DNA of 64,000 nt from NCBI GenBank assembly GCA_022510485.1, contig JAFLTI010000003.1:32405-96404 (forward strand). Direction: 5' to 3'. Below the pieces are notes generated by a model, which searched no databases, was not told the DNA's origin, and was given only the letters and a program-made list of their open reading frames with translations. Source of the DNA: Lentimicrobiaceae bacterium (GTDB taxonomy: Bacteria; Bacteroidota; Bacteroidia; Bacteroidales; P3). Below, in pieces: positions 59,679-63,797 of the stretch; position 1 is the stretch's first letter, and the number at the start of each line of letters is the position of its first letter. Both the position numbers and the translations under genes were made by a program.

Positions 59679-59984
59679 ATGGAAAAGAAAAACAATCAGA
59701 AAATAGAACTGGAGTTGACCCCCGATGTGGCGGACGGCATTTATTCCAATCTGGCGCTCATAACGCATTCCCAGTCGGAATTTGTGGTAGACTTTACTAC
59801 CGTGATGCCGGGTGTGGCTAAGGCACGTGTAAAATCGCGTGTGATTCTCACGCCTCAGCACGCCAAACGCCTGATGAAGGCGTTGAGCGATAATATCCGC
59901 CGCTACGAAAATATGTTCGGAGCCATCGAAGAACGCGAGCCTATTCCGACTTCGTTTCTGAATACGCCCACTACGGAGGCATAA
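59679..59984 (+). CDS. DUF3467 family protein
   Basis: IELELTPDVADGIYSNLALITHSQSEFVVDF; conserved position after rpoC in Bacteroidota. Confidence 0.9.
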   Translation: MEKKNNQKIELELTPDVADGIYSNLALITHSQSEFVVDFTTVMPGVAKARVKSRVILTPQHAKRLMKALSDNIRRYENMFGAIEEREPIPTSFLNTPTTEA

Positions 59985-60052: not shown

Positions 60053-60661
60053 CTATAATTTGAATTCTACGCGGTTAGACAGGGAGCGACCCAAAGTGAG
60101 TTCGTCGGTATATTCCAAATCGTCGCCTATGGCGATGCCTTTTGCCAAGGTGGTTACCTTTACAGCAATGTCCTTTAACTGACGGAAGATATAGAAAGCG
60201 GAAGTATCGCCCTCGGGCGTTGCGGGCAGTGCCAAAATTACTTCCTGCACATTTTCCCTTTGCAGGCGTTCTCCCAAACCGGCAATGTTGAGCTGGGAGG
60301 GGCTGATTCCTGCCAAGGGATTGATAAGCCCGCCCAATACGTGATACAATCCGTTATAGATACCTGTGTTTTCGAGAGCCATTACATCCCTTACGTCGCT
60401 TACCACGCACAGCAGGCTGCGGTCTCGTTTGGGCGAGGCGCAGATAGGACAGGTTTCGGAATCCGAAATATTATGGCAATGCTTGCAGTAGCGTATATTG
60501 TTGCGGAAATCTATAAGCGTGGTGCCGAATTTCTCTACCATCTGACGGTCTTGCGAAAGCAGAAAGAGAGCCAGACGTAGGGCGGTCTTGCGTCCTATGC
60601 CGGGCAGACGGTTGAGTTCGTCAACGGCGTTTTCCAGCAGTTTAAGCGATATGTTGTCCAT
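60053..60661 (-). CDS. recR: Recombination mediator protein RecR
   Basis: LNRLPGIGRKTALRLALFLL; CKHCHNISDSETCPIC; start MDNISLKLLE at 60661. Confidence 0.96.
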   Translation of the reverse strand: MDNISLKLLENAVDELNRLPGIGRKTALRLALFLLSQDRQMVEKFGTTLIDFRNNIRYCKHCHNISDSETCPICASPKRDRSLLCVVSDVRDVMALENTGIYNGLYHVLGGLINPLAGISPSQLNIAGLGERLQRENVQEVILALPATPEGDTSAFYIFRQLKDIAVKVTTLAKGIAIGDDLEYTDELTLGRSLSNRVEFKL

Positions 60662-60750
60662 AAACGGATGATTGCAACGCGAAAATACAACAAAGTTGCC
60701 GTAGCGTAAAAATATTGCTACATTTGTTGCTGTGCCTAACAAAATAAGAT

Positions 60751-62364
60751 ATGCGGAACCTATTTTTTTTGTTTGCATTATCCGTTCTTTTTGTTGCTTG
60801 CGGCAGTTCCGAAAAAAAGGCGGAATCGGGCTTGATTTCTTTTATCGTACGCCACGAAAACACGGTTGTGCCCCTGTCGGAACAAATAGATCGGGCGTTT
60901 TGGGAATATGCGCAAACAGGTTCGGAATCCGTCAGGAAAAAAATAGATTCGCTGGAGGCACTTAAGGCAAGGCATCTCCATAACGAAAAAAGTTTTTCCT
61001 ATCTTCAGCAGCTCAAGAACAAAGGCATTATCCACGACGAATACCTGCAACGCCAGTTAGAGATTCTCCATAGGCAGTATCTGTTTTATCAAGCCGATTT
61101 GGATTTGCAGGAAAGGGTAAGGCTTCTTCAATCCTATCTTAAAAACAAAGTTTGGAAAACAACGAAAGAGGCGCAGGCTTGTGCGCTTGACAGTTCGGAA
61201 ATGGTTGGATTCATTTGCCGAAGGGCAATGAAAGACAGTTTAATGCTCTTGGTTAAATTGCGCAACGAATGGGCGCGTCAAACCGGTTTTTCGGATTATT
61301 ATGCCTTGCAGTTTTTCTTAAATGAACAGGAGCCTGAACAGATAGACAGTCTTTTTGCCGAGTTGGAACGCCAAACCGATTCGGCTTATCGGCTCATAAA
61401 ACAGGATGTTCACTATTCGAGGCATTATCGGGGCGTTTTCTCACAATATGGCCAACGTTACGACAACATAAGACGGAACAATATCTATGCCTATGTGAAT
61501 ATGCCACACCTTGCCGTGCGTTTTTTTTCGGGCATCGGCTTTGAATTAGAAGGCGTGATGTCAAACAGTGACCTTTCGCCGGACGATGCCAAACTGCCGA
61601 TTATGCGCTGTGCTTCCATAGACCGTAAAAACGATGTTCGCCTGATAGGGGAACTGCATGGCACGGAAACCGATATGTTGAGGCTGCTTGCCTGCTGCGG
61701 CGAAGCGGTTTATTGGGAAAATATACCGAATACCTTGCCCTATTTGTTGCGGACTCCTTCTTCGTTTATGTTGCAGGTGGGCGTGGCTTCTTTTTTCTCC
61801 CGTTTGGTGGGCTATCCCGACTGGCTTTTGGATATGGGCGTGTTTTCGGCGGGGCAGGCAGGGGCATTGCGCGGTTCCACCCATCGCGAGTTTGTAAGGG
61901 AACAGCTGTACTTTTGCCGTTGGGCTTTGATGATGTACCATTTTGAACGGGAATTGTATGCCAATCCCGACAGGAATCTTTCTGTAGTGTGGGCCGATTT
62001 ATACCGCCGATACATAGGGCAGGCGCGCGAAGAGGAAATAAAATGTGAAAAAAACAGGGGCTGCACCTATCAGGAATGGATTTCTGAACCTTATTTTGTG
62101 CTGGATGTGTGCAGAATACATCATTATTTAATGGCGGAACTCTGGGCGGCGCAGGTAATGGACTATCTGTGCGAAGCCCATCCCAAAATAGGTAATCCCT
62201 GCAACCCGGCATTGGTGGGCAACAAAGAGGTGGGCGCGTATTTCAAAAAATATGTTTTTGAACCGGGAGCCGTAATCCGTTGGGATACACTTACCCGCCG
62301 TGCCACCGGCAGCGAGCTGTCGGTAGAAAGTTTTGTTGAACAGTTTTGTAAAATAGAGGAATGA
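60751..62364 (+). CDS. Lipoprotein M2/M3-like metallopeptidase homologue lacking the HExxH zinc site (putative pseudo-peptidase)
   Basis: Lipobox LFVACGSS; LLACCGEAVYWENIPNTLPYLLRTPSSF aligns to the family HExGHAVY...LPFLLRTPAH region; C-terminal LYFCRWALMMYHFERELYANPDRNL. Confidence 0.8.
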   Translation: MRNLFFLFALSVLFVACGSSEKKAESGLISFIVRHENTVVPLSEQIDRAFWEYAQTGSESVRKKIDSLEALKARHLHNEKSFSYLQQLKNKGIIHDEYLQRQLEILHRQYLFYQADLDLQERVRLLQSYLKNKVWKTTKEAQACALDSSEMVGFICRRAMKDSLMLLVKLRNEWARQTGFSDYYALQFFLNEQEPEQIDSLFAELERQTDSAYRLIKQDVHYSRHYRGVFSQYGQRYDNIRRNNIYAYVNMPHLAVRFFSGIGFELEGVMSNSDLSPDDAKLPIMRCASIDRKNDVRLIGELHGTETDMLRLLACCGEAVYWENIPNTLPYLLRTPSSFMLQVGVASFFSRLVGYPDWLLDMGVFSAGQAGALRGSTHREFVREQLYFCRWALMMYHFERELYANPDRNLSVVWADLYRRYIGQAREEEIKCEKNRGCTYQEWISEPYFVLDVCRIHHYLMAELWAAQVMDYLCEAHPKIGNPCNPALVGNKEVGAYFKKYVFEPGAVIRWDTLTRRATGSELSVESFVEQFCKIEE

Positions 62365-63797
62365 CCCCTGCGCTTATAGGAATCGTTTTTGTAGCCTATA
62401 CGGCTCTTTTATTCTTGATAGCCTTTTTTACAGGCAAGAAAGCCGGAGACGAAGCATATTACAGAGGCAATCGCCGTTCCCCTTGGTTCGTGGTGGCTTA
62501 CGGTATGGTGGGAGCTTCGCTTTCGGGCGTTACCTTTATGTCGGTGCCGGGCAATGTGCTTAGGGAAAATTTTTACTATATCCCTATGGTATTAGGCTTT
62601 GTTGCCGGTTATGCGGTTATTGCCAAAGTGCTGCTGCCCATTTACTATCGTCTTAACCTTACCTCTATCTACGGATATCTGGATATGCGTTTCGGCTTGC
62701 GGTCGTATAAGAGCGGGGCGGCTTTTTTTCTGCTTTCGCGGAGTTTAGGGGCTACCTTGCGTATGTTTTTAGTGATAAGCGTGCTGTACGAATTTGTGTT
62801 CAAGGCGATGGGAATACCCTTCGGAGTGGCGGCGCTTGTCTTTATCCTGCTCATTTTGGGCTATACCTTTAGGGGCGGAATCAAAACCATTGTGTGGACC
62901 GATACCCTACAGACCACCTTTATGCTTGCCGCCGTAATCATTTCTATTATCTGCATTGCCCAAAGCATGGGCTGGAATTTGGGTCAAATGTTGGTGGCTG
63001 TAAAGGAAAGCCCCTTTTCACGTATGTTCGATACCGACCCTATGGCTCCGCGTTTCTTTGTAAAGCAGTTTGTGAGCGGGCTGTTCATAACCGTTACTAT
63101 GACCGGGCTGGATCAAGATATGATGCAGAAGAACCTCAGTTGCCGCAACATCAAAGACGCGCAAAAAAATATGTACACTTGCAGCGCGAGCATCTTGGTG
63201 ATGAACTTTTTCTTTTTGACCTTGGGCGCGATTTTGGGTTTGTTCGCGCAAAAATATGGCATTGTCTGCACCGATACCGACCAGCTTTTTCCCACCATCG
63301 CCATTCGTTACCTGCCCTCTATAGCCGGAATTACCTTTGTAATCGGGGTACTGTCTGCCGCCTATTCAAGTGCAGACGGAGCATTGACTGCCGTTACCAC
63401 GAGCTTTACGATAGATATTTTAGGCGTGGAACGCCGGGGGCTTTCTGAACAGAAGCGAAAAAAAGTGCGTTATATCGTACACTTCAGTATGGCTTTGCTG
63501 TTCTTGCTGCTCATCATCTTGTTCGATAAACTCAAGAACGATTCGGTAATCAATATGGTTTACGATATAGCCTCCTATACATACGGACCGCTCTTGGGGC
63601 TTTTTGTTGTAGGTATCTGCACGCGCTGGAAAGTAAACGACCGCCTTACCCCTATGGTGGTGATACTGGCGCCGATTCTTTCGTATGCCGTTAATGCTTT
63701 GTGCCGGATATGCTGGGGGTATCACTTCGGCTTTGAATTGCTGCTTCTCAACGGCTTATTAACGGTGGTCGGTTTATACGCAATCAGGAAAAAATAA
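62361..63797 (+). CDS. Sodium:solute symporter (SSS) family protein
   Basis: RGNRRSPWFVVAYGMVGASLSGVTFMSVPG; ATGA overlap with the upstream gene. Confidence 0.93.
   Translation: MTPALIGIVFVAYTALLFLIAFFTGKKAGDEAYYRGNRRSPWFVVAYGMVGASLSGVTFMSVPGNVLRENFYYIPMVLGFVAGYAVIAKVLLPIYYRLNLTSIYGYLDMRFGLRSYKSGAAFFLLSRSLGATLRMFLVISVLYEFVFKAMGIPFGVAALVFILLILGYTFRGGIKTIVWTDTLQTTFMLAAVIISIICIAQSMGWNLGQMLVAVKESPFSRMFDTDPMAPRFFVKQFVSGLFITVTMTGLDQDMMQKNLSCRNIKDAQKNMYTCSASILVMNFFFLTLGAILGLFAQKYGIVCTDTDQLFPTIAIRYLPSIAGITFVIGVLSAAYSSADGALTAVTTSFTIDILGVERRGLSEQKRKKVRYIVHFSMALLFLLLIILFDKLKNDSVINMVYDIASYTYGPLLGLFVVGICTRWKVNDRLTPMVVILAPILSYAVNALCRICWGYHFGFELLLLNGLLTVVGLYAIRKK

Follow-up and report, generated by a model that had tools for sequence, protein, structure and literature searches.

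Within the stretch of DNA analysed here, a 64,000-nucleotide window from a Lentimicrobiaceae bacterium, one gene encodes a peptidase-like lipoprotein in which the zinc site appears to have been erased, and the question raised by this locus is whether such a gene is decaying, encodes an enzyme with another chemistry, or is maintained for a non-catalytic role, and in the latter case with which partner. The gene and its 5' elements are the following:

60751..62364, + strand: M2 (ACE-family) pseudopeptidase lipoprotein gene, intact ORF of 537 aa with an ATG start
60751..60801, + strand: signal peptide and lipobox (LFVACGSS), with the putatively lipidated Cys17 at its end
60719..60726, + strand: TACATTTG, candidate -7 element (match to the consensus TAnnTTTG)

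As the first-pass annotation held, the frame is a single unbroken one, the opposite strand being broken by stops over the same interval, and the lipobox is borne out as well, LFVAC occupying residues 13-17 with a Cys that is nearly invariant across the alignment of relatives. A location at the surface had also been proposed, and this finds no support in the sequence following the Cys (CGSSEKKAES), where there is no acidic export signal; surface export of lipoproteins follows an acidic signal placed after the lipidated Cys. Upstream, the TAnnTTTG match, which we take to be the Bacteroidota -7 promoter element, is preceded by GTTG at 60695-60698, a weak candidate for the -33 element separated from TACATTTG by a 20-nt spacer. 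In 10 of 12 loci, a TAnnTTTG motif stands no farther than 80 nt before the chosen start, for about 0.03 expected per locus. The predicted structure of the protein, folded with only two sequences, has a mean pLDDT of 36, too low for the model to be of use.

Taken alone, the window protein has no significant match in Pfam, NCBIfam or the PDB and lies below every Pfam cut-off, so that its link to the M2 family rests on relatives and profiles. At the gathering cut-off of PF01401 (Peptidase_M2, ACE family) it gives no M2 match; its orthologue L008 scores 35.5 against 23, and an active relative, L012, reaches E 2.9e-29 over 523 residues. This L012, together with L014, belongs to the more distant homologues and reads HEFGH plus a downstream TTE. 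The profile of the genus aligns with 12 active Bacteroidota M2 proteins over 545 columns (probability 100, E 5e-97, 28% identity), a mixed profile finds ACE structures with E 9e-32, and the profile of the genus alone finds M32, a related family, with E 4e-10 and ACE chains with 2e-8. Among 14 family members, M2 is matched by 10 and M3 (PF01432) by four, with best E values of 2.9e-29 vs. 9.7e-16. The initial designation as M2/M3-type thus stands for its M2 half, through PF01401 and the ACE structures, and falls for M3, membership of which is rejected by the profile scores. Likewise, the homology had been placed in the C-terminal half only and actually runs over the full length: by profile comparison, the window protein is an M2 homologue from end to end. 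The framework kept in common with M2 comprises R171-N172, W358, R390-W391, F398-E399, Y403, W414, A466 and Q468.

The positions at which it departs from active M2 proteins include the following:

61672..61674, + strand: D308, Asp in 11/11 copies of the genus, Trp in 95/95 active homologues
61690..61704, + strand: A314-C315-C316-G317-E318, erased HExGH site, placed on HEFGH by profile alignment
61777..61779, + strand: V343, erased third zinc ligand, a Glu some 25 residues beyond HExxH in active peptidases, present in 95/95 active homologues
62086..62094, + strand: E446-P447-Y448, with Glu and Tyr in place of the pocket Lys and His, both invariant in active homologues (95/95)

The two motifs on which the loss of both zinc His, of the catalytic Glu and of the downstream Glu ligand had been proposed, LLACCGEAVY and LQVGVAS, correspond to residues 312-321 and 341-347, and the profile-profile alignment, in setting ACCGE on HEFGH and V343 on the third ligand, upholds each of these losses. 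At positions 314/315/318/343/446/448/455, every one of the 95 close active homologues reads H, E, H, E, K, H and Y, where the window protein reads A, C, E, V, E, Y and R; it also has Ile at position 284 in place of a His invariant in active homologues. The erasure therefore extends beyond what was first noticed, since I284, E446, Y448 and R455 stand at what we take to be the equivalents of ACE His353, Lys511, His513 and Tyr520. At the level of sequence, the protein is thus shown to lack the residues on which zinc binding in the M2 manner and peptide hydrolysis by the M2 mechanism depend. Nor is any set of His, Cys, Asp or Glu at the old zinc site conserved across the copies of the genus (H457, for instance, is absent from L005), which argues against a zinc site made by other residues; an alternative metal site built from C315/C316 is rejected, this Cys pair being confined to the window protein and L002-L004. 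As a separate observation, cysteines are numerous in these proteins, 13 in the window protein and 6-14 across it together with L002-L010, L015 and L017, against 3-4 in four active or YExGF proteins counted (the YExGF group is described below). Only the window protein and L002-L004 carry the insert IKCEKNRGC, itself with Cys residues, and disulfides are possible in the Cys-rich dead copies.

The old cleft could instead perform another chemistry without the M2 zinc, through D308, E318/K318, E446 and Y448, as suggested by newly invariant polar residues at three positions of the former pocket region (E446 and Y448, like D308, are fixed in 11/11 copies of the genus) and by the strict retention of a Y-E-x-x-F...D set in the YExGF group. 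Such a changed enzyme is quite improbable, as position 318 is Glu in eight copies and Lys in three (L005, L010 and L011) and positions 315, 343 and 455 vary freely within the genus, which is unlike an active site. Besides, the three newly fixed sites, however suggestive, are not clearly above the background of invariant columns, and as such columns are common in the genus (84/532), no new active site is claimed.

How old the loss is can be read from the relatives. Whole-genome searches extended over 13 genomes of the genus, 190 of the family, a sample of 393 from the order and one of 396 from the phylum, the genomes compared being probably mostly metagenome-assembled; a homologue is present in 17 of 61 related genomes. 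The 128 homologues that were read divide into 99 intact ones (HExGH plus Glu) and 29 dead ones, the latter comprising 11 copies of the genus, that of the window included, two of a sister genus (L015/L017), which read WLGGV at the old HExxH position, and 16 YExGF copies. Short lipoproteins in G115 and G134 were discarded, as they gave weak N-terminal matches only, the one in G115 being a different small lipoprotein. HExxH is absent from 11/11 copies of the genus and 2/2 of the sister genus, so that no orthologue with the motif at this site was found in either genus. From the sequences compared, the loss of the zinc site in this lineage is ancient. A tree built with the site columns left out groups the dead copies of the two genera in one clade and those of YExGF type in a second (100/100 each); a quick tree lacking distant outgroups joins both dead groups at 90, which the tree with outgroups does not, and the AU test does not reject monophyly of all dead copies (p = 0.557), a value compatible with one origin or two. 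The third-ligand Glu, still present in L009-L011 and in L015/L017, leans towards a separate, or stepwise, loss in this lineage.

A decaying gene, or an active peptidase hit by a recent mutation, would be another account of such a sequence. The protein does evolve faster than its neighbours, with a dN/dS of 0.13 for the M2-like gene vs. 0.05 for the adjacent symporter gene in the same species pair (0.04-0.10 for the symporter overall). Yet none of 13 copies has an internal stop (one copy ends at a contig edge), and dN/dS, expected near 1 in an unconstrained gene, is 0.09-0.155 among five pairs of dead copies, to be compared with 0.07-0.14 in three YExGF pairs and 0.08-0.14 in two active M2 pairs, all by the Nei-Gojobori method (own script) with high dS making the values of the wider pairs rough. 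As the dead copies are like the active ones in this respect, their state is not one of decay; as no HExxH copy exists in either genus, recent mutation fares no better, and both are rejected on these data as extremely improbable. The original proposal of a selected, non-catalytic protein of peptidase fold, anchored as a lipoprotein, is thereby sustained, and that the gene product is a selected pseudopeptidase is considered highly probable. It could have served to regulate an active M2 protein encoded elsewhere in its own genome, an idea rejected since no active M2 paralogue was found there; dead and active copies were seen together in no sampled genome of the order. A direct PF01401 search of the genome is uninformative in this regard, giving no match there but none in control genomes either.

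What the pseudopeptidase is selected for may be approached through its two neighbours:

60053..60661, - strand: recR, divergent from the M2-like gene, with 60661 as the likely start (ATG), although the ORF as listed extends to 60778
62361..63797, + strand: sodium:solute symporter (SSS/SSF) gene, whose start overlaps the pseudopeptidase stop (ATGA)

The downstream product matches PF00474 with E 1.7e-24, its nearest solved structure being 5nv9 (E 8e-28), and no equivalog model reaches its cut-off for it. In 13/13 loci of both genera the symporter gene immediately follows the M2-like gene, with the ATGA overlap in four of them; in some species the gap widens to roughly 170-240 bp, and the coupling is therefore not strict. 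On the other side, recR is the neighbour in 9 of the 12 loci with enough flank, and in L024-L026, where it is no longer adjacent, the M2-symporter pair persists. In six genomes of the family and order (L218, L219, L221, L230, L233 and L234), recR and the symporter gene point away from each other with nothing M2-like in between, as read directly in L221, which indicates that the M2-like gene was inserted into an older arrangement and, the recR-symporter adjacency being ancestral, that part of the linkage is inherited. Both the M2-like and the symporter genes are missing from G011 and G012, probably through missing sequence, these genomes being 84% and 76% complete. A second M2-symporter pair occurs in G008, made of L047 (G008:C113:6-218) and of a symporter gene (G008:C113:310-1728) whose product is 70% identical to that of the window, as in the sister genus, and represents either a second copy or a contaminant contig. 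Elsewhere in the window, a DUF3467 gene (59679-59984; PF11950, E 7.8e-31) directly follows rpoC.

Synteny, tree and dN/dS support the view that the M2-like gene entered the interval between recR and the symporter gene in an ancestor common to the two genera and was then kept there by purifying selection. The pseudopeptidase and the symporter may be made from the same transcript, and the former would most likely be a non-catalytic periplasmic accessory of the latter, which would present a ligand by way of the remodelled catalytic cleft or else help the transporter to assemble. That the two proteins work together, as suggested by gene linkage, is a tentative view, nearly as good as an even bet; the explanation as a whole, i.e. 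a non-catalytic lipoprotein that is a selected pseudopeptidase and an accessory of the neighbouring symporter, is given a probability of about 0.45. An outer-membrane lipoprotein might fail to reach an inner-membrane transporter, which counts against the partnership, and so does the second dead M2 group, for which no shared neighbour and no adjacent symporter were found. This group amounts to 16 copies in 14 genomes from nine other Bacteroidales families:

Members of the YExGF group: L013, L016, L146, L150, L155, L161, L165, L166, L168-L172, L176, L178 and L181

They share LYExGF plus an Asp (Tyr 16/16, Glu 16/16, Phe 15/16, Asp 16/16) and keep the catalytic Glu as well as the pocket Lys and His (16/16). 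Two genomes of one family, G266 (L165, L170) and G369 (L172, L181), lack an active copy and hold two dead ones each. Near three YExGF genes (L155, L171 and L176) lies a gene that looks serpin-like by its sequence, directly divergent from two of them and with two genes in between for the third.

These copies, with their retained residues in unrelated neighbourhoods, show that a dead M2 fold can be useful without an adjacent symporter and favour a role of the window protein independent of it as well, with a peptide, another envelope ligand or a protein partner, the operon being merely positional. Such an independent role is possible rather than probable: the ACE-type peptide contacts are lost in this genus, and the gene stays paired with that of the symporter even where its other flank has been rearranged. 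With those contacts gone, the peptide binder envisaged in the first-pass annotation is a weakened proposal for the window protein and fits the YExGF group better, the pocket Lys and His being kept there and lost here, so that this group is possibly the more interesting binder. Returning to the accessory of the symporter, the constancy of its link with a single symporter gene points to a specific function that can be put to the test, and that would show in what way an enzyme fold finds new use after its chemistry is lost. More broadly, bacterial M2 pseudopeptidases are widespread in one order, old and under selection, so that their automatic naming as peptidases would be wrong. No account of bacterial ones was found in the open-access papers searched, such an absence being weak evidence.

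Compared with the active Bacteroidota M2 lipoproteins (PF01401), the window protein has in common the full-length match, the lipoprotein anchor and the framework residues, whereas zinc ligands, catalytic Glu, pocket Lys and His, and Tyr are replaced; its downstream partner gene belongs to the sodium:solute symporter family (PF00474; 5nv9). Non-peptidase homologues of M2 are known in animals, namely ACN-1 of C. elegans, ANCE-2 to -5 of Drosophila and mammalian ACE3, which are predicted to be inactive as essential active-site residues are missing (PMC1325048, PMC1925091), and the title of a work cited in one of these sources attributes an essential role to ACN-1 (PMC1325048). The likeness is that of ACE-family proteins predicted inactive through missing active-site residues; the bacterial ones differ in being lipoproteins with patterns of their own, AxxGE/K on the one hand and YExGF plus Asp on the other, and, unlike the animal proteins, the AxxGE/K group is locked to a Na+ symporter gene. 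Another ACE-family protein, ACE2, is physically complexed with the sodium-driven transporter B0AT1 (SLC6A19) (PMC7164635, PMC8194517). This pairing of an ACE-family protein with a sodium-driven transporter is at most an analogy, as the physical partnership is shown there, with a transporter of SLC6 type. The contact between ACE2 and B0AT1 is made mainly through the collectrin-like part of ACE2, which is absent from the window protein. A bolder and unlikely reading would be that Bacteroidales converted an ACE-family peptidase at least once into a non-catalytic subunit dedicated to a Na+ symporter, in parallel to ACE2-B0AT1, with the YExGF/Asp proteins as a second ancient pseudo-ACE group in another, unrecognised role.
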